Positions 18,786-31,822 of a DNA stretch of 64,000 nt are shown piece by piece; position 1 is the first letter of the stretch, and every line of letters starts with the position of its first letter. The translations under genes and the position numbers were made by a program. This DNA comes from Candidatus Pseudoruminococcus merdavium (GTDB lineage: Bacteria; Bacillota; Clostridia; Oscillospirales; Ruminococcaceae). A model generated the notes under the pieces. It did not search any database. It worked only from the letters and a program-made list of their open reading frames with translations, and was not told the origin of the DNA. The stretch spans positions 1-64,000 of the forward strand of contig CAJFSS010000003.1 of the NCBI GenBank assembly GCA_904419745.1. Reading direction: 5' to 3'.

Positions 18786-20132
18786 TTAAAGCGTCAGCGT
18801 CCCGCTTTCATCTTCCACCAGGATAAGAATCCTCTCTTCTTCCCCAGTCTGTGTATCAATATAGACCAGGACGTTCTCACCGCCGCTTCCCTCGCATAGA
18901 AATTCATAGCAGTAAGCCTCATTAAGCCCATCGGTTGGAATTACGGCCATCTGATAGTTTTTTACACTCAGTTCGCTGCTTAAAATAGCGGCGGCTTCCC
19001 CGGAAGTGAGTTTTGGCTGTTCCAAATTGCGGGCTTTATGATTGGTCAGGTATCCTCTGGCGTCGTATCCGCAGACTTTCCCTTCATCCAGGCAAACGGA
19101 TACCTTGATTAAATCCGTATAACAGGTGGCTTCCCCTTCTATCGATGCAAAATTGATGGTGCATACTCCATTTGAAATTTCATAATAGGTGTTTTTCATT
19201 CCGGAAAGCCCCATGGAAGAGAGGAAACGCGCCCCAATCTGGACGGCATGGTCAACGCTGTATCTTTGTTCGCCATGTTCTTTTGAGCAAATTTTGTAAA
19301 TTAAATATCCGCCTCTTTTGGAAACGGCCGCCTCTTCCGGGCCATAAACAAATCGGTAGGCGGGCATAATCCCCTCTTCTTCGGATTCCTCCATGATTTG
19401 ACTGGCGTCTTCAATTCCAAAGGCTTTTGCTGCAATTTCTTTTGCCTCTTCCTTGGAAATTTCCGCTTTATCTTTCAAAACAAGGGGTTCTCTTTGGAGC
19501 AGGTGGTCGGAAAACGGACCGTCGTAAATCAGGGAAGGATAACTGACAAAATCATCTTCCAGTTCTGCAAAACCGGAGAGGTTTGCCACCTGGGTGGAAC
19601 TGTCTTCCTCCACCTCCGCGGTCAAAAGCTGTTCTAAGTCCGTAATCCCCGCATCCAAGTCGCTTTTCATCTGTGTAACAGAATCATTCATCTGTTTTGC
19701 GTATTCTCCCAGGGTAACCAGGGTGTCGCGTTCTTCCTGCGTAATTTCCCCATCACCAATCACTTTTTTGGAAAGTGTCATGGAGTATTCCCCAACCTGG
19801 GACAGGAACCGGTTTGTGTTTTGAAGATGAAAATCACTGACCGGCAAACGGGAAAGACAGTTTTTGGCAATCCCAGCTTCTTTCCAAAGTTTTGCAGACA
19901 GTCCGGAAATCTGGGCAGGTGTGGAAGCGTAGCGGCTTTTTTCCAGGGTAACTGATAAACTGGAAAGGGAATCCGATAAATCAGAAAGTGCGTACTGGTA
20001 TTCGTATTCCACTTGGGTTCGGAACTGTTCTTCTGCCCGGTAACTCTGTACCAAGGCGCCTGTGCATACGAGGATTCCGGCTACAAGAAAACAGACAGCA
20101 CGGATTATGGCCCTTTTAGAAATTGTCATCAT
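18786..20132 (-). CDS. ypeB: Germination protein YpeB
   Basis: A 448-residue spore protein. In Bacillus, YpeB stabilises the cortex-lytic enzyme SleB in the dormant spore and is cut during germination. It has an N-terminal membrane anchor ('RAVCFLVAGILVCTGALVQSY', about residues 7-28), a helical domain rich in Leu/Ser, and C-terminal PepSY-like repeats ('SKEEAKEIAAKAFG', 'LTSGEAAAILSSEL'). ATG 20132 follows GGAGGAAC. sleB, the usual partner directly upstream, is not here: the upstream neighbour is a divergent desulfurase gene. The presence of ypeB indicates a spore former. Confidence 0.92.
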   Translation of the reverse strand: MMTISKRAIIRAVCFLVAGILVCTGALVQSYRAEEQFRTQVEYEYQYALSDLSDSLSSLSVTLEKSRYASTPAQISGLSAKLWKEAGIAKNCLSRLPVSDFHLQNTNRFLSQVGEYSMTLSKKVIGDGEITQEERDTLVTLGEYAKQMNDSVTQMKSDLDAGITDLEQLLTAEVEEDSSTQVANLSGFAELEDDFVSYPSLIYDGPFSDHLLQREPLVLKDKAEISKEEAKEIAAKAFGIEDASQIMEESEEEGIMPAYRFVYGPEEAAVSKRGGYLIYKICSKEHGEQRYSVDHAVQIGARFLSSMGLSGMKNTYYEISNGVCTINFASIEGEATCYTDLIKVSVCLDEGKVCGYDARGYLTNHKARNLEQPKLTSGEAAAILSSELSVKNYQMAVIPTDGLNEAYCYEFLCEGSGGENVLVYIDTQTGEEERILILVEDESGTLTL

Positions 20133-20240
20133 AATATGTTCCTCCATCGGTCATATTTGGAAAGATAACCTGCTTCGGCGAAAATTACAGGCATATTCTG
20201 CCCGGATTTTATTAAAAATATGTAAATGCTGCGTTTGTAA

Positions 20241-20269: not shown

Positions 20270-20336
20270 AAAAGCTGTATTTCTGCGAAAAAGCGGGAAA
20301 AAAGGCGAAAGCGGGAAGTAAAAGGTGATCCAATCG

Positions 20337-21473
20337 ATGCTTCATTATCTGGACAATAGTGCAACCACTGCAGTAGATCCGCAGGTTGCAGATTTGATTT
20401 ACAAAACCATGATCGACTGCTATGGTAATCCCTCCTCCTTGCACGACCTGGGGCTGCAGGCGGAACAGGTCGTACAGCGGGCGGCAAAGCAGATTTGTGC
20501 ATGCATTGGCGCCAAGCCGGGAGAAATCTATTTCACATCCGGTGGGACGGAAGCCAATAATTTGGCGGTATTTGGGGCGGCCTATGCCAAACGGAGAACA
20601 GCAAACCGGATTGTTACCACTGCAATCGAGCATTCCTCTGTGTTAGAATCCTGTCAGCAACTGGAAAAAGAGGGATTTGAAGTGGTCTTTGTAAAACCGG
20701 AGCAGGATGGGACTCTGCTGGCGGAAAAAATTGTGGAAGCGGTCAACGACAACACTTCCCTTGTCACGGCAATGCTTGTCAACAATGAAACAGGCGCCGT
20801 GCTGGATATTGCAGAAATGGCAAAGGCTGTACACAGGAAAAATCCGGATACTCTGGTGCATTGCGATGCGGTACAGGCTTTTGGAAAACTGCCGGTTTCT
20901 GTGCGCTCGCTTGGTGTGGATTTGCTCACCGCAAGCGGGCATAAAATTCACGCGCCAAAGGGAATTGGATTTCTCTATAAATCCGCAAAGGCGCGGATTT
21001 TGCCCCGCACCTTTGGAGGAGAACAGCAAAAACGCCTGCGCCCCGGGACAGAATGTGTACCATTGATTGCAGGCCTTGGGCTTGCGGCGGAACTTTCCTG
21101 TGCAAAAATACAGGAACATACACAGAAGATCAGAGAGCTAAACGAAATGCTGCGGGAAAGGGTCTGTAAAATTCCCGAAGTTTTTCTCAATTCCCCCAGG
21201 GACGCGTCCCCTTACGTACTCAATATTTCGGCAGTAGGACTTCGTTCGGAAATTTTGCTGCATTTTCTGGAACAAAACAAAGTCTATGTTTCCAGTGGAT
21301 CCGCATGCGCACAGGGGGCAAAAAGCCATGTGCTTGAAGCGATGGAGCTTGATCGCCGCCGGGTAGATAGTGCCATCCGTATAAGCTTTAGTAAATATAG
21401 TGCCAAAGAGGATGTCGAGGCATTTGCAGACAGTCTGATACTGGCCAGACAAAAACTTTTCAGGAGCAGATAA
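20337..21473 (+). CDS. Cysteine desulfurase, NifS/NifZ type, partner of ThiI
   Basis: A class V PLP aminotransferase of about 378 residues that takes sulfur from cysteine. The PLP lysine is in 'TASGHKIHAPKGIGFLY' and the persulfide cysteine in 'SSGSACAQGAKSHVLEAM'. 'NNETGAVLDIAEM' is also typical. ATG 20337 follows GGTGAT; GTG at 20325 is an alternative. The stop codon meets the thiI start directly. In Bacillus subtilis the desulfurase NifZ next to ThiI supplies sulfur for 4-thiouridine, and the same role fits here. Confidence 0.93.
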   Translation: MLHYLDNSATTAVDPQVADLIYKTMIDCYGNPSSLHDLGLQAEQVVQRAAKQICACIGAKPGEIYFTSGGTEANNLAVFGAAYAKRRTANRIVTTAIEHSSVLESCQQLEKEGFEVVFVKPEQDGTLLAEKIVEAVNDNTSLVTAMLVNNETGAVLDIAEMAKAVHRKNPDTLVHCDAVQAFGKLPVSVRSLGVDLLTASGHKIHAPKGIGFLYKSAKARILPRTFGGEQQKRLRPGTECVPLIAGLGLAAELSCAKIQEHTQKIRELNEMLRERVCKIPEVFLNSPRDASPYVLNISAVGLRSEILLHFLEQNKVYVSSGSACAQGAKSHVLEAMELDRRRVDSAIRISFSKYSAKEDVEAFADSLILARQKLFRSR

Positions 21474-22646
21474 ATGAAAGAGATCATACTCATTAAAAAT
21501 GGAGAAATCGCATTAAAAGGACTGAATCGAGCAACTTTTGAAGATATTATGATAAAGAATATGCGCCGTCGGCTTTCCGTGCTTGGAAAATTTAAAATCA
21601 CCAGGGCACAATCCACAGTTGCTGTTGAACCGGAAGATGAAGAGATTGACCTGGACGAAGCAGTGGAAATTCTCAAAAAGGTTTTTGGCATTGCAGCTAT
21701 GTCCCGTGCCCTTGTCACGGAGAAAAATCTTGGAACAATCCAAAAAGATGCCGCCGAATACCTGAAGGATACCCTTTCAGAAATCCGGACATTTAAAGTA
21801 GAGGCAAAACGTTCGGACAAGAGTTTTCCCTATCAGTCTCCGGAAATTTGTCGAGAGGTTGGGGGATATCTGCTTTCAAAAAATCCTCACCTCAAGGTGG
21901 ACGTCCATCATCCGGACGTCATTGTTACAGTGGAAGTCCGCGACTTTGCCGCTTATGTTCATGCCGGCGTTATCCATGGTGCGGGGGGAATTCCTATTGG
22001 TTCCAGCGGAAAGGCAATGCTGCTGATATCGGGCGGTATTGATAGCCCGGTAGCGGGATATATGATGGCAAAACGTGGTCTTATTTTGGATGCGATCCAC
22101 TTTGTCAGCCCCCCTTATACCAGTGAGCGGGCCAAGTTGAAAGTTCTGGAACTTGCACAGAAGATGTGCGAATACTGTGGGACGATTAAGATGCATATTG
22201 TGCCTTTTACCCATATCCAAGAACAGATCCGGCAGCATTGCCCGGAAGATCTGTTTACAATTATTATGCGCCGTTTCATGATGCGAATTTCGCAGCGTGT
22301 GGCAAAGGCGAGTAGTTGTGAGGCACTGATTACGGGGGAGAGCATGGGACAGGTCGCCAGTCAGACGCTGAAAGCAATTGCTTGTACGGACAGAGTGTGT
22401 TCCATGCCGGTATTTAGGCCCCTGATTGGAATGGACAAAAATGAAATTATTGAAATTTCCCGTAAAATAGACACTTTTGAGACATCAATTCTTCCTTATG
22501 AGGACTGCTGTACCGTGTTTACCCCACGGCATCCGCGGACAAAGCCAAGTCTTTCTATGGTGGAACATGCGGAGGAAGTACTGGAGATCGAATCCCTGAT
22601 TGAAGAGGCGGTTTCTGGAATTGAAGTGGAAACGGTACGCCTGTAA
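21474..22646 (+). CDS. thiI: tRNA 4-thiouridine synthase ThiI
   Basis: Adenylates and thiolates uridine 8 of tRNA. It has 390 residues: an N-terminal ferredoxin-like and THUMP region (1-165), then the PP-loop ATPase 'LLISGGIDSPVAGYMMAKRG' near 183. The C-terminal rhodanese domain of the enterobacterial enzyme is missing, as in Bacillus, where a dedicated desulfurase feeds it. 'VCSMPVFRPLIGMDKNEI' and 'DCCTVFTPRHP' are family blocks. It follows the desulfurase with no gap. The fusion gene starts 24 bases later, so all three share the promoter at 20241. Confidence 0.95.
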   Translation: MKEIILIKNGEIALKGLNRATFEDIMIKNMRRRLSVLGKFKITRAQSTVAVEPEDEEIDLDEAVEILKKVFGIAAMSRALVTEKNLGTIQKDAAEYLKDTLSEIRTFKVEAKRSDKSFPYQSPEICREVGGYLLSKNPHLKVDVHHPDVIVTVEVRDFAAYVHAGVIHGAGGIPIGSSGKAMLLISGGIDSPVAGYMMAKRGLILDAIHFVSPPYTSERAKLKVLELAQKMCEYCGTIKMHIVPFTHIQEQIRQHCPEDLFTIIMRRFMMRISQRVAKASSCEALITGESMGQVASQTLKAIACTDRVCSMPVFRPLIGMDKNEIIEISRKIDTFETSILPYEDCCTVFTPRHPRTKPSLSMVEHAEEVLEIESLIEEAVSGIEVETVRL

Positions 22647-22670: not shown

Positions 22671-25346
22671 ATGAATGCAGAGATTATTGTAGTCGGTAGC
22701 CAGGAACGGGTAGCCGACGCGGCACTGAAAAATGCGGAGTATCTGCGCGGACAGTTAAAAAATATTGGGATTACTTTGTCCGGGCAATCCGCCGCCCTGA
22801 CAAATCCGGGACGGCTGGAACGCATGTTTGCTTCCGCACTGGATCGCAGCGATGTTGTTATTATCACTGGAGGCCTTGGGGTTGAAAAGGATGATATTTC
22901 CAAAGACTGTATCTGCCAGACCTTGGGACTTTCTCTGGAGCTGAACGAAGAAGTCCTCAGCCGTGTCAAAGCCTATGTTGACCGGGCCGGGGAAAGTATG
23001 AACGAAGCCTATGTCCACCAGGCAATGTTTCCCCGCCATGCAGTCATTTTTAAAAATCAGATTGGAGTTTCCTGTGGTTTTGCCATCAAAGGGACAAATA
23101 AGCAGATCCTTCTTTTACCGGTACAGCCAGAAGAACTCACGGAAATGTTTGAATCGGAAGTTTTGCCTTTTTTGGAGCGAAACTCGTCCAATGCGACAGC
23201 AAACCATATATTAAAGCTGTCCGGACTTTCGCTTGTTGAAGTGCAGGAAAAACTTGGAGCATTGGCAGGTATGTCCAATCCATCTGTGGAAGCAGTGGAG
23301 AAAGACGGGGAAGTGTTTGTCCAAATCCATGCAATGGCAAATACCCGCCACCATGCGGAAAATGCCTGTGCTGCTGTGGTAAAACAGGTTTCCCAGTTGT
23401 TGGGTGACGCAGTGTATGGCCAGGATGAAGAGCGCCTTGAGCAGGTAGTCTGTCAAAAATTACATACTTGCGGTAAAACAGTTTCCCTATGCGAGCTTGG
23501 CAGCGCCAATGCCATTGGAAAACGGCTGCTTTCTGATAAATATGGGGTTTCTGTTCTCCTTGACAGTGGCATGAATGAACCCCTGTCCTATCTCCCTAAA
23601 AAAATTACTGACAAATACTCCCCCGTGAGTAAGGAAGCGGCCGCTTATCTGGCCAAGGCGGCAAGCGATTTGACGCAATCTTCCTTTGGCGTGGCTTTTG
23701 TGTCCCCAACGCAAAAGGCCATTTCTCTGTCGGGCAAAACACCAAAAAACCTGGTCTATGCGGCTGTCTATCAGGATGGAAAAGGATGGGTACAGGAGTT
23801 CCCTGCTACTGCACAGTCCATTGAACAGGCCGGTTCCTGGGCGTTTCAGATTCTACGACTGTGCTTAGATGGATCGGAGTCCGTCATGACGCAGGCCTAT
23901 GAGGTCAATCATGCAGGCGTGCTCAAGGAGCCAAAAAATCGGAACGAACAAGGGCTGGAACAGGAAACCACAGAAAATTCCGTGGAACAACAAAAAAAGG
24001 AAAAACACAAATCCGGTAAAAAGCCCTGGTATAAAAAAGTGCTTGGATATTGTATCCCTTCCAAAAATGATTCTGTGGGGGAAATTATCCGCAAAATCTT
24101 CTTTACTTTGGGTACACTGGTTTGTATTGGATGCCTGATTTTTATTGCGGTACATTATGCGTCCTATTTTAATGCCCAAAGGCAAAATGAATCATTAAAA
24201 CATCTGTTGACCGAATCCACCAGTATCCCAAGTGATTATCCGGAGAATTATTTGGAAAAGTTCGCCGGACTTTATAAAATCAATCCGGATATTGCCGGGT
24301 GGCTGGAAATTGAAAATACAGGAATTGATTATCCTGTGGTTCAGGGAGAAGATAACAACACTTACCTGGATAGAAACTTCCGGAAAAAGAAGGACAAACG
24401 CGGAACCATTTTTATGGATTATCGGAATGACGCGCGCATAAAAGGCTCCAATATGGTACTGTACGGAAGTAATTTAAATGATAGCACCATGTTCAGCAAC
24501 CTGGTCAATTATAAGGAAATCAGTTACTATCAGGAACACCCGATCATTCAGTTTGATACGGTCTATGAAGAGGCTCAGTGGAAGATTATTGGTGCGTTTT
24601 TGACAACGTCTGAGGGGACGGATACCAATTCTCTCGCTTTTGGAGAATTTCTCTACCCAAGAAGCCAGGAGGACTTTGACTGGTATATCAATGAGGTTTC
24701 TATCCGTTCCTATTTGAATACTGGAGTGGATGTGGAGTTTGGTGACACACTGTTGACCCTTGCTACCCCGACTGAAGAGTTGAACAACGGATATTTTGTT
24801 GTGGTAGCCCGCCAAGTCCGGGATGGAGAGGGCGCAGAAGTTGACACGGCTGCTGCCACACAGAACACAAGTCCGCTGATGCCGGAAAGCTGGTATCTGA
24901 AGTACGGTGGAAGCGCACCGAGTGGTGTGACTGCAACACCGAACCCGCTTGGCGGATATGCAAATGTCAAAGAGAATATGTTTGGCTATGTCGATCCGGA
25001 TGCGGAGCAGACGGTCTCTTCCGATGTCGAAAGCGAGGAGAGTAGTTCTCCTGAACCAGAAGATACTTCTTCCGAAGAGGAAGAGCAGACCTATACTCCT
25101 CCTGCTTCTTCTACGCCGCAGATTGCTCTGCCAGAAGAACCGGAAGAACCTTATGTCCCACCAGCTGAACCGGAAGAACCAGAAACTCCTCCTGTTTCCA
25201 GTAACACCTCATCAGAAGTGGAGAATTCGTCAACACCGGAGGAACCAGAGGAGCCAGAGGAATCAAATCCTGGGTCTGGCTCACCATCCAGTTCCCCTTC
25301 CTCAGAAACTTCATCAGATAATACAACGCAGTCATCGACAGAATAG
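22671..25346 (+). CDS. CinA-like / degenerate class B sortase-like fusion membrane protein
   Basis: An 891-residue protein. Residues 1-165 match the MoaB/CinA N-terminal domain (ITGGLGVEKDD near 65). Residues about 245-410 resemble the CinA C-terminal amidase domain, but the ESCTGG motif reads ELGSAN. A charged linker leads to one membrane segment (about 476-497). Residues 538-718 have the class B sortase fold (GWLEIENTGIDYPVVQ, GTIFMDYRND, MFSNLVNY), but the catalytic His block YGHH is YGSN (598-601), the TLSTC cysteine is Pro (TLATP, 700), and the Arg is missing. The end (about 775-891) is a Ser/Pro/Glu-rich repeat tail. It should be cytoplasmic at the N-terminus and extracellular behind the anchor. 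Two dead enzyme folds suggest binding or scaffolding. Third gene of the desulfurase-thiI operon. Confidence 0.85.
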   Translation: MNAEIIVVGSQERVADAALKNAEYLRGQLKNIGITLSGQSAALTNPGRLERMFASALDRSDVVIITGGLGVEKDDISKDCICQTLGLSLELNEEVLSRVKAYVDRAGESMNEAYVHQAMFPRHAVIFKNQIGVSCGFAIKGTNKQILLLPVQPEELTEMFESEVLPFLERNSSNATANHILKLSGLSLVEVQEKLGALAGMSNPSVEAVEKDGEVFVQIHAMANTRHHAENACAAVVKQVSQLLGDAVYGQDEERLEQVVCQKLHTCGKTVSLCELGSANAIGKRLLSDKYGVSVLLDSGMNEPLSYLPKKITDKYSPVSKEAAAYLAKAASDLTQSSFGVAFVSPTQKAISLSGKTPKNLVYAAVYQDGKGWVQEFPATAQSIEQAGSWAFQILRLCLDGSESVMTQAYEVNHAGVLKEPKNRNEQGLEQETTENSVEQQKKEKHKSGKKPWYKKVLGYCIPSKNDSVGEIIRKIFFTLGTLVCIGCLIFIAVHYASYFNAQRQNESLKHLLTESTSIPSDYPENYLEKFAGLYKINPDIAGWLEIENTGIDYPVVQGEDNNTYLDRNFRKKKDKRGTIFMDYRNDARIKGSNMVLYGSNLNDSTMFSNLVNYKEISYYQEHPIIQFDTVYEEAQWKIIGAFLTTSEGTDTNSLAFGEFLYPRSQEDFDWYINEVSIRSYLNTGVDVEFGDTLLTLATPTEELNNGYFVVVARQVRDGEGAEVDTAAATQNTSPLMPESWYLKYGGSAPSGVTATPNPLGGYANVKENMFGYVDPDAEQTVSSDVESEESSSPEPEDTSSEEEEQTYTPPASSTPQIALPEEPEEPYVPPAEPEEPETPPVSSNTSSEVENSSTPEEPEEPEESNPGSGSPSSSPSSETSSDNTTQSSTE

Positions 25347-25674: not shown

Positions 25675-25694
25675 AGTAAAGGATGGACAAAGGC

Positions 25695-26627
25695 ATGGCA
25701 ATCAATAAAGTGATGAGACAGGCGCTCAAAGCGTTGTCCTATCCGGATTTGGATACCAAACACACTTATAAGTTACAGCGTGCGGCGATTAATTTGACCC
25801 ATGCCCATGTTCTGCGCCCTTTTTATAAAATTTGGGATCATAAGGTGGATGCAGGCGATCATCAAATTCCTGTACGGATTTTCTCACCAGAAGTAAAAGG
25901 GGATTTCCCCGTCCTGCTGTTTTTTCATGGAGGAGGCTGGGTGACAGGGAATATTGACAGTTATGATAAAGTGTGTACCAACATGGCGCGGATTACAAAA
26001 CACCGGGTTGTTTCCGTGGACTATCGTTTGGCACCGGAGTATCCCTTCCCGGCAGGCTTGCATGACTGTTATCGAGTGGCAAAAGAAATCTATAAAAATC
26101 CCTCCCTGCTTGGAATAAAAACAAACGAAATTACCCTTATCGGGGACAGCGCTGGTGGAAATCTGGCGGCTGCGGTTTCTTTGATGGCAAGAGACCGGGG
26201 AGATTTTTTACCTCACAGGCAGATCCTTATTTATCCTGCAACATACAATGATCATAGTGAGACCTCCCCTTTTCCATCTGTCCATGAAAACGGGGAAGGG
26301 TATCTGCTGACCAGCAAAAAGGTCTGTGATTATCTGGATTTGTACCAGGGAAAAGACGAGGATCGCCTGAATCCCTACTTTGCCCCACTACTTTCCAAGC
26401 ATTTGGATCATCAACCGGATACCTTAATTATAACCGCAGAATATGATCCTTTGCGAGATGAAGGGGAGGCATATGGAAAAAAACTAATGCAGTTTGGAAC
26501 CCATGTGAAGATGTACCGGATGCATGATGCGCTCCATGGATTTATGTCTTTAAGCCCTCGGTTTTCCCATGTAAAAAAGGCATACCGTTATATCAACCGG
26601 TTTCTCAGTGAGGAGAGAGAGGAATGA
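25695..26627 (+). CDS. Alpha/beta hydrolase, HSL/acetyl-esterase family
   Basis: A protein of about 310 residues of the hormone-sensitive-lipase family. 'LFFHGGGWVTGN' is the oxyanion-hole HGGGW motif, 'LIGDSAGGNLAAAVSL' holds the nucleophilic Ser, 'EYDPLRDEGEAY' the Asp and 'DALHGFM' the His. No signal peptide, so it acts in the cytoplasm. ATG 25695 is preferred over 25683 because AAAGGATG lies at a better distance. Its stop overlaps the acyltransferase start by four bases (ATGA), so the two proteins are probably made together and may act on the same ester. Confidence 0.9.
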   Translation: MAINKVMRQALKALSYPDLDTKHTYKLQRAAINLTHAHVLRPFYKIWDHKVDAGDHQIPVRIFSPEVKGDFPVLLFFHGGGWVTGNIDSYDKVCTNMARITKHRVVSVDYRLAPEYPFPAGLHDCYRVAKEIYKNPSLLGIKTNEITLIGDSAGGNLAAAVSLMARDRGDFLPHRQILIYPATYNDHSETSPFPSVHENGEGYLLTSKKVCDYLDLYQGKDEDRLNPYFAPLLSKHLDHQPDTLIITAEYDPLRDEGEAYGKKLMQFGTHVKMYRMHDALHGFMSLSPRFSHVKKAYRYINRFLSEEREE

Positions 26628-27907
26628 GATCTGTAAAAAGTGAAAATTGGAATAAATTAGATAATGCAGCAAAAATTTTTCCGCCGACCAGTAACGAAAG
26701 GGATACCAAAGTGTTTCGGTTTTCCTGTCAGCTCAAAGAACCTGTAGATGGACTGCTGCTACAACAGGCGCTGGACGATGTTATCGGGAAATTTCCCATA
26801 TTCTGTTCCGTACTTAAACGAGGAATGTTCTGGTATTATTTAGAACATCGGGAAACACGGCCCCTTGTTTTGCCGGAACACAGGCCCCCTTGTAGTGAAC
26901 TGTACGACCGCAATCGCAAGAACCTGCTGTTTGAGGTAACCCATTTTCGCCGGAGAATCAATTTGGAAATCTATCATGCCCTGTCGGATGGGACAGGGGC
27001 ATTGCAATTCTTGCGCACATTGGTCTGTCGCTATCTATCTTTGGCGCATCCGGAAATCTCAGGAGATCCGGTTTCTGAACTGGATTATGATGCCTCCTCC
27101 TTTGAAAAGGGGGAGGACAGTTTTCTCAAATACTATGACCCGAAAAAGAAAGTAAAAAGGGAAAAGATGATTCGTGCTTATCAGCTAAAAGGGACTTTGC
27201 TGCCGGAAAATCGGCAGCGTGTTGTGGAAGGGACTATGCCGGTTCAACAAGTCCTCCGCGCTGCAAAATCCCATGGGGCGACCTTGACAGAATATCTCTG
27301 TGCGCTGATGCTCTTGGCAATCGCCAAACAAATGCCAGTAACAGCGCGCCGCAAACCAGTTTCCTTGGATGTTCCCATTAATTTGCGTAATTATTACGAA
27401 TCTGCAACAGCAAGGAATTTTTTCGGCGTCATGCAGGTGCGTTGTCGGTTTGAACGGCAAGAAGATCTAGTCCTGGAACCAGTGCTAGCCTGCGTGAAAC
27501 AAACTTTTCAGCGGGAATTGGCCAAGGATAAAATCGAAGAGAGAATGATCCAGCTTTCAGCGATGGAACACAATGTGGTGGCAAGGGCGGTTCCTCTCCC
27601 CATAAAGGATATGGTGCTTGGTTTTGCCAGCAAATATGCGAGAGTCGCAACTACGGGTTCTCTATCCAATGTGGGGAGCATTACAATGCCAGAATGTGTA
27701 CAGTCTTATATCGACCGTTTTGATTTGATGACAGGGACGGATAAGATCCAGGCATGTGTTTGTTCTTATCTTGAACAATTGACAATCACTTTCATGAGCG
27801 GATTTGCCTCTACAGAAGTACAAAAACACTTTTTCCGAATGTTATCTGCGGAGGGGATCCCAGTGTGTATTGAAACTTCTCCCATGCCTGAAATTGAGGA
27901 GGGATAA
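26624..27907 (+). CDS. Condensation/alcohol acetyltransferase-like protein
   Basis: A 427-residue protein of the chloramphenicol acetyltransferase/condensation superfamily, close to 'alcohol acetyltransferase' (AATase/PapA-like). The catalytic motif HxxxDG appears as 'HALSDGTGAL' near residue 117. A second family block reads 'RKPVSLDVPINLRNYY', followed by 'ARNFFGVMQVRC'. It likely transfers an acyl group to a hydroxyl or amine, but substrates cannot be read from sequence. Upstream it overlaps the hydrolase gene, and the DUF6320-like gene follows after two bases. Confidence 0.8.
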   Translation: MRSVKSENWNKLDNAAKIFPPTSNERDTKVFRFSCQLKEPVDGLLLQQALDDVIGKFPIFCSVLKRGMFWYYLEHRETRPLVLPEHRPPCSELYDRNRKNLLFEVTHFRRRINLEIYHALSDGTGALQFLRTLVCRYLSLAHPEISGDPVSELDYDASSFEKGEDSFLKYYDPKKKVKREKMIRAYQLKGTLLPENRQRVVEGTMPVQQVLRAAKSHGATLTEYLCALMLLAIAKQMPVTARRKPVSLDVPINLRNYYESATARNFFGVMQVRCRFERQEDLVLEPVLACVKQTFQRELAKDKIEERMIQLSAMEHNVVARAVPLPIKDMVLGFASKYARVATTGSLSNVGSITMPECVQSYIDRFDLMTGTDKIQACVCSYLEQLTITFMSGFASTEVQKHFFRMLSAEGIPVCIETSPMPEIEEG

Positions 27908-27909
27908 GG

Positions 27910-28578
27910 ATGAAAACCTGTGAAAAATGTAGAATTACCGTTGGGGCAAATCGAGAGTTTTGCCCGCTTTGCCAACGAAAACTCTCGGGAGAAGCAGAAC
28001 AGGGCCAGGAAGAAATTTTTCCGCATTTGCCCTTCTATTATAAGCAGTACCATTTGTTTTTTCGTATCCTGATATTTGCGTCAATAACGGCTGGGGCAGT
28101 ATCACTGTTGACAAACTTTCTGATACCCACTAGGATCTGGTGGTCTTTGATTGTTATTGCAGGAATTGTGTGTATGTGGATGATCCTTGCAACGGCTATC
28201 AAAAAAAGGCACAATATTACAAAGGGAGTCTTATCTCTGGCTGTGCTGATTTCTGTTTGTACTGGGGCTATCGATTATTCGACAGGATTTTACCGTTGGT
28301 CTGTCAACTATGTTATTCCAATATTACTTTTATTTGCAATGCTTGCCATTGTAATTTTAGCCCGCGTGCTGCACAGCCGTACGGAAGATTACCTGATTTA
28401 CCTGATTGTCAATGGACTGTTTGGCCTGGTACCGCTGCTATTCCTTCTTTTGGGATGGATAACTGTACGTTGGCCTTCCTTGTGCTGTATTATGGTAAGT
28501 TTTTTATCATTGGCTGGCATTTTTGTGTTTTCCAAAATGGATCCAAGAGCGGAATTGAAAAAGAGATTACACATATAA
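27910..28578 (+). CDS. Zinc-ribbon membrane protein, DUF6320-like
   Basis: A 222-residue protein. The N-terminus holds a zinc ribbon with two Cys pairs ('CEKCRITVG...FCPLCQRKL'). About six hydrophobic segments follow from residue 55 onward, ending in a short basic tail. It looks like the DUF6320 family, whose function is unknown. It is the third gene of a tight cluster with an esterase and an acyltransferase, which suggests a membrane partner for lipid or envelope ester chemistry (inference). Confidence 0.72.
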   Translation: MKTCEKCRITVGANREFCPLCQRKLSGEAEQGQEEIFPHLPFYYKQYHLFFRILIFASITAGAVSLLTNFLIPTRIWWSLIVIAGIVCMWMILATAIKKRHNITKGVLSLAVLISVCTGAIDYSTGFYRWSVNYVIPILLLFAMLAIVILARVLHSRTEDYLIYLIVNGLFGLVPLLFLLLGWITVRWPSLCCIMVSFLSLAGIFVFSKMDPRAELKKRLHI

Positions 28579-31066: not shown

Positions 31067-31822
31067 TTGCCAAAAAAGAAAAAGTCCGGCGGAGGAGTGC
31101 TTCGCACCCTAATCCTGATTATCTGCATTGGGGTTTTTTGCTTTTCCGCCTATGAACTTATCAAGATTTTCCTTGAATACAATGAGGGCGCACAGGAATA
31201 TCACAAAATCGAACAATATACCAATGAACCTGTTGAAAGTGGTTCATCGGAATTTTCTGTAGATTATGAAGGGCTGCGCGCAATCAATGATGAAATCGTC
31301 GGCTGGATCCGTGTTCCGGATACGACGATTAATTACCCGATTATGCAGACAGGGAATAACGATTATTACCTGTCCTATACGTTTGAACGCAATACAAACA
31401 TTGCGGGGAGCATTTTTATGGATTACCGCAATGCAGCGGATTTTTCAGACCGTAATACTATTATTTATGGGCATCATATAAAAAATGGAAAAATGTTTGC
31501 GGATTTACGCCATTATACAGATGAAGATTTTTATAAGAAACATCCGATTATCTATTTAAATACTCCCGGAGAGGGAAACGTGGAGTACGAGATTTTTTCT
31601 TTTTATCTGACTGGAAATTACCGAAGTACTTATGGAGAGACTTATACCTACCAGTTTGCAGACGATCAGGCCTATCAGGAATATCTTAATATGATTACTT
31701 CCCAGTCCCAATATGATACTGGGGTGGAAGTCTCTGTTGACGATAGCATCATTACACTCTCCACATGCACCAACCGTACGGATGATGAGCGATACATTGT
31801 CCACGCAAAGAAGATTTCTTAA
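31067..31822 (+). CDS. srtB: Class B sortase, apparently active
   Basis: A 251-residue transpeptidase that cuts a sorting signal and joins proteins to peptidoglycan. It has a basic N-terminus, a membrane anchor ('LRTLILIICIGVFCFSAYEL', about 9-30) and an extracellular sortase domain. All three catalytic residues are present: His in 'YGHH' (134-137), Cys in 'TLSTC' (234) and Arg in 'DDERY' (242). The start is TTG 31067, with GGAGGGAG upstream. It is a useful in-window reference for the degenerate sortase-like domain at 22671-25346. No sorting-signal substrate is encoded nearby. Confidence 0.93.
   Translation: MPKKKKSGGGVLRTLILIICIGVFCFSAYELIKIFLEYNEGAQEYHKIEQYTNEPVESGSSEFSVDYEGLRAINDEIVGWIRVPDTTINYPIMQTGNNDYYLSYTFERNTNIAGSIFMDYRNAADFSDRNTIIYGHHIKNGKMFADLRHYTDEDFYKKHPIIYLNTPGEGNVEYEIFSFYLTGNYRSTYGETYTYQFADDQAYQEYLNMITSQSQYDTGVEVSVDDSIITLSTCTNRTDDERYIVHAKKIS

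Follow-up and report, generated by a model that had tools for sequence, protein, structure and literature searches.

The window analysed here, a stretch of 64,000 nucleotides, encodes an 891-residue protein in which a CinA-like half is joined through one transmembrane helix to a class B sortase fold and which, as read from its residues, is catalytically dead in both halves. The fusion arose from cinA and srtB, which are neighbours in an operon arranged iscS-thiI-cinA-srtB-spoIID. Its product is, on balance, probably a pseudoenzyme that spans the membrane and would serve as a non-enzymatic scaffold at the cell wall. This reading is upheld by recurrent losses in the family, by purifying selection in a related genus and by losses in the window copy that strike the catalytic residues specifically. 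The features of the locus are:

18789..20147, reverse strand: ypeB, spore germination protein (PF14620/PF20769), divergent neighbour
20325..21473, forward strand: iscS/nifS-like cysteine desulfurase (Pfam Aminotran_5, 1.6e-75), first gene of the conserved cluster
21474..22646, forward strand: thiI, tRNA 4-thiouridine synthase (TIGR00342, 380 bits), directly upstream of the fusion ORF
22671..25346, forward strand: CinA-class B sortase fusion ORF, 891 aa, without catalytic residues in either half
22671..23195, forward strand: COG1058/MoCF domain, aa 1-175, with GGLG....DD retained, GPT gone and LPGPPxE changed to LPVQPEE
23196..23435, forward strand: CinA KH domain, aa 176-255, with Leu188 as the equivalent of the Mg2+-site Glu187
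23436..23906, forward strand: degenerate NMN-deamidase (PncC/CinA C) domain, aa 256-412, with ESCTGG changed to ELGSAN
24096..24170, forward strand: single transmembrane helix, about aa 476-500 from sequence (AlphaFold2 helix 469-514)
24237..24830, forward strand: class B sortase fold, about aa 523-715 (profile, alignment and Foldseek)
24831..24926, forward strand: C-terminal extension conserved in fusion-type sortases, about aa 715-750 (NP.PLMP..WY....GG.P, from the alignment)
24927..25343, forward strand: acidic Ser/Pro/Glu tail (S/P/E/T), counting 34 D/E and 1 K/R over the final 146 aa
25347..25376, no strand assigned: strong terminator-like 13-bp hairpin, directly 3' of the fusion ORF
31067..31819, forward strand: separate class B sortase with His, Cys and Arg intact, the sole other sortase-family match in the window genome

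The fusion ORF of 891 codons starts 24 bp downstream of the thiI stop codon, with a Shine-Dalgarno-like AGAGAGG located 5' of its ATG. The protein matches the profiles of MoCF/COG1058 (E 7.9e-20), CinA_KH (2.8e-12) and class B sortase (TIGR03064, 170.2 bits against a cut-off of 153.75). The CinA half scores under the NCBIfam equivalog cut-offs, and its MoCF-KH-PncC domain order and fold are present. An AlphaFold2 model of the full-length protein, made from a 46-sequence alignment of mostly active relatives, has a mean pLDDT of 89 and exhibits both the CinA and the SrtB folds. Foldseek matches this model to Thermus CinA (E 1.6e-30) and to B. anthracis SrtB (E 1.3e-19, TM 0.90). Profiles, model and Foldseek agree with the initial annotation, which had assigned a CinA part, a membrane helix, a class B sortase and an acidic tail to this single ORF. 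The C-terminal extension of the sortase is modelled with a pLDDT of 87-95 by block, and the most degenerate relatives (sortase bit scores 21-62) still model as CinA, SrtB and SpoIID folds. A similar low-complexity spacer is found in the tail position of relatives, followed by SpoIID or Big2 domains. The CinA part is predicted to lie inside the cell and the sortase outside, which fits the Lys-rich stretch (aa 442-456) located N-terminal to the membrane helix; an N-in topology is normal for class B sortases.

In the sortase fold, alignments place Ser600 (24468), Pro700 (24768) and Tyr708 (24792) at the positions of the catalytic His, Cys and Arg. These are the three losses initially annotated, and those of His and Cys are also read directly against S. 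aureus SrtB. Among positions 90% conserved in active relatives, the window sortase retains 38 of 41 non-catalytic ones (93%), which falls inside the range of active sequences, versus none of the three catalytic ones. If six of these 44 positions were lost at random, all three catalytic residues would be among them with a probability of 0.0015. The reported change of ESCTGG to ELGSAN likewise holds in the CinA half, where the Ser of ESC is replaced by L276 and, with Thermus numbering given first, Glu187 by Leu188, Lys301 by Asn302 and Thr340 by Val344; four of the five checked site residues are thus gone and D75 is retained. In Thermus CinA, Glu187 of the KH domain is assigned to Mg2+ and Lys301 is the general base, with Thr340 also assigned (PMC4246079).

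Many genera of the same family encode full-length relatives, as do several further families of the order; named records come from Merdimmobilis, Acetanaerobacterium, Massilioclostridium, Negativibacillus and Provencibacterium, all Oscillospiraceae in the broad NCBI sense. An assembly or frameshift artefact joining two genes, which had been named as a possible source of this ORF, is ruled out, the fusion being found again across many genera. Domain maps show a conserved cluster across the order, iscS-thiI-cinA-srtB-spoIID with ypeB divergent, and this arrangement is shared by dozens of genera of gut bacteria. Among 110 loci with distinct ThiI, which were picked by homology to the window sortase or CinA with thiI required and so give no unbiased census, 68 have cinA fused to srtB, 38 have the two adjacent and 4 are arranged otherwise; fusion or adjacency is therefore seen in 106/110, and SpoIID is often fused too. 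The gene does stay next to thiI in its relatives, and its place behind a desulfurase and thiI, which had been called unexpected, is normal for it, with iscS present in 98 of these thiI-selected loci. Every intermediate architecture exists among the relatives: three separate genes cinA, srtB and spoIID (L043, L064, L066), fused cinA-srtB (L038, L040, L067), fused srtB-spoIID (L041) and triple fusions (L042, L044, L046, L048-L050 and others). In the class-level search, which scored two candidates per genome, the best matches listed from outside the order were CinA-only, with no fusion among them.

SpoIID is the third partner of this operon and was absent from the initial annotation. Among 83 operon copies, a motif scan finds its Glu101 equivalent retained in 81, and most genomes encode a separate canonical SpoIID elsewhere. 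No SpoIID gene or domain is located downstream of the window fusion, where a DUF896 gene follows the terminator; the sole SpoIID match in the window genome is at C5:37424. Big2 Ig-like C-termini replace SpoIID in the fusion sortases of five loci, identified by Pfam for L063 and by sequence and BLAST matches for L023, L027, L030 and L061. The ypeB gene is divergent beside iscS-thiI in 36/110 loci and is undetected in the clade with divergent dead sortases; this neighbourhood makes a link to sporulation possible. Farther downstream, a tight gene set of its own occupies positions 25683-28578 of the window and encodes an alpha/beta hydrolase, a protein resembling acyltransferases (weak PapA_C match) and a DUF6320 membrane protein. 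A Negativibacillus locus (L060) has relatives of the hydrolase and of the acyltransferase-like protein beside iscS-thiI.

The initial annotation had described both halves as dead, and this is true of the copy in the window but not of the family as a whole. The His, Cys and Arg are retained in 127/151 sortase domains of the locus set (a few of the other 24 are cut off by a contig end), and intact fused CinAs are numerous. Death of the sortase in all orthologues is ruled out. The fusion recurs across genera, most orthologues have the sortase triad intact, and by the initial annotation's own reckoning orthologues that retain the triad make this copy a mutated one. The clearly dead sortases are those of the window, G026 (S/P/D), G083 (K/G/T), G050 and a clade of about 13 loci, and second sortases are dead in L150/L196 and in L177/L180/L191. 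In the latter three loci the second sortase domain is fused to SpoIID and lacks His and Cys (L177:3671-6955, L180:7291-10230, L191:7209-10043), and the preceding CinA-sortase is intact. Loss of the triad requires at least six changes on the ThiI tree of the 110 loci, and one dead-sortase locus (L072) is nested in a supported active clade, although the window locus itself has no firm place on this tree; the sortase has been inactivated several times independently, at least six. Within the G025 genus, Nei-Gojobori estimates of omega between species, made at dS 0.19-0.59, are 0.12-0.22 for the dead sortase, 0.03-0.14 for the dead CinA and 0.035-0.075 for SpoIID, and both dead regions are under purifying selection. 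The window genus consists of one genome, as does that of G026, and no close relative of the window gene is found in the collections. Retention of the fold in the window copy is indicated by its retained residues, while selection was measured in the related dead genus.

Decay of a redundant copy would explain part of this pattern. The fused copy may be a relaxed paralogue, degenerating once the genome held a stand-alone CinA (C4:8200-9312, with its five signature residues DESKT intact) and the sortase at 31067, an explanation that we regard as rather unlikely. Intact copies of both enzymes in the window genome speak for it, as does the distribution of CinA in the family sample: another copy is found in 21 of 26 genomes with a degenerate operon CinA versus 2 of 24 with an intact one (Fisher p=1.8e-7, which is optimistic as the genomes are not independent), and an operon CinA with an intact signature is nearly always the only one in its genome. 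In nine genomes an intact cinA directly precedes the degenerate cinA', which is mostly sortase-fused and otherwise eroded, and this points to tandem duplication. The window copy also lacks the SpoIID domain, and G031 and G141, of one genus, show that decay can come after inactivation, since their outer part has dwindled to a short tail. What is left of the degenerate cinA' at L076:6292-7416 and L094:5850-6878 is KH-CinA-C and a membrane helix followed by a short tail, with almost all of the outer part gone. Against decay, the window gene exhibits an intact reading frame, a ribosome-binding site and a terminator, the conserved non-catalytic sortase positions are retained as given above, and dead copies elsewhere are under purifying selection and have lasted across the clade of about 13 loci.

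Another explanation is that the outer half alone matters, with CinA a passenger of the fusion and the pseudo-sortase and tail forming a membrane-anchored wall binder or SrtB decoy. Erosion is greater in the CinA C domain, where 7/22 near-invariant positions are retained, than in the sortase, and vestigial MoCF is all that is left of CinA in three relatives (L059, L105, L173). We nonetheless find this quite unlikely, as the CinA fold is predicted with high confidence, dead CinA is under purifying selection in the related genus and SpoIID proteins also retain a degenerate CinA. The latter is encoded in about 20 loci of other families, where the operon order is CinA-C (intact PncC)-srtB-srtB-X-SpoIID. 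Region X, which makes up the N-terminal ~320 residues of that SpoIID protein, does not match Pfam, and hhalign identifies it as a degenerate CinA (probability 98, E 8e-14). This cryptic CinA is seen on the SpoIID proteins of L141, L143-L145, L154-L157, L163-L165, L169, L172, L176, L179, L181, L184, L185 and L192. Attachment of degenerate CinA to different wall proteins suggests that the cytosolic CinA fold is itself useful, and its presence on SpoIID without a sortase means that the CinA handle has been re-used. The pseudo-CinA could also belong to a ligand-responsive receptor that still binds ADP-ribose or NMN-like nucleotides and would thereby signal NAD turnover to the wall. ADP-ribose has been put forward as a signal (PMC3680494), and the COG1058 half retains GGLG....DD and 17/26 near-invariant positions. 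Such a receptor is very unlikely, since several ligand and metal residues are gone (GPT, LPGPP, E187, K301, T340) and the window copy has no remaining downstream effector enzyme. Of the sensing or scaffolding function initially suggested in place of enzymatic work, non-enzymatic scaffolding stands as the best current reading, and sensing is kept as a rival.

In the scaffold reading, the CinA fold, which forms a dimer in Thermus CinA (PMC4246079), would be a handle for dimerisation in the cytosol and would catalyse little or nothing. The one membrane helix would carry the tether outward, where the sortase fold and its C-terminal extension may bind a sorting signal, a partner enzyme or a peptidoglycan stem without cleaving it. 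Among partners, the intact sortase at 31067 is the obvious candidate. Sorting signals of the TIGR03063 type, a model only 29 residues long, match in 8/148 family genomes and not in the window genome. The acidic tail would reach into the wall, in the position that SpoIID occupies in relatives. More broadly, degenerate CinA may be a reusable cytosolic module of transmembrane wall proteins (SrtB, dead SrtB and SpoIID), coupling the inside of the cell, possibly through NAD-derived nucleotides, to wall processing via recurrently evolved pseudo-sortases. We offer this as a tentative and rather doubtful proposal; if true, such a module would be a trans-membrane device of a new kind, for control or for scaffolding.

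Each part of the fusion belongs to a known fold, and the domain combination is undescribed in the open-access literature, as the initial annotation had supposed. No description of CinA with sortase, of SpoIID with sortase in an arrangement like this or of inactive sortases was found among 5.39 million open-access papers, and we know of no described pseudo-sortase and of no CinA built into a transmembrane protein. The cinA-srtB-SpoIID operon of gut Oscillospiraceae is a strong 'Rosetta stone' hint of joint action at the cell envelope, as it ties the NAD-recycling CinA to a class B sortase and a SpoIID lytic-transglycosylase-type domain. The repeated loss of catalysis with the fold retained provides natural experiments on the sortase fold without its chemistry.

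Three known systems can be compared with the fusion protein. The SpoIID lytic transglycosylase (C. difficile 5i1t; PMC6221140) is the third gene or a fused domain in many relatives, whereas it is absent from the window protein. CinA/COG1058-PncC (T. thermophilus 4ct8; PMC4246079) has the same MoCF-KH-PncC order and predicted fold, but the window CinA half differs from it in the loss of E187, K301, T340 and ESCTGG and in being tethered to a membrane helix. The closest match to the outer half is SrtB (TIGR03064; S. aureus 1ng5/4lfd, B. anthracis 2oqw, C. difficile 4ux7), which shares with it the fold, the N-terminal membrane anchor, about 30% identity and most conserved structural positions. Unlike SrtB, the window sortase has its catalytic His, Cys and Arg all replaced, is preceded by a cytoplasmic CinA part of about 450 residues and is followed by the conserved C-terminal extension and acidic tail.
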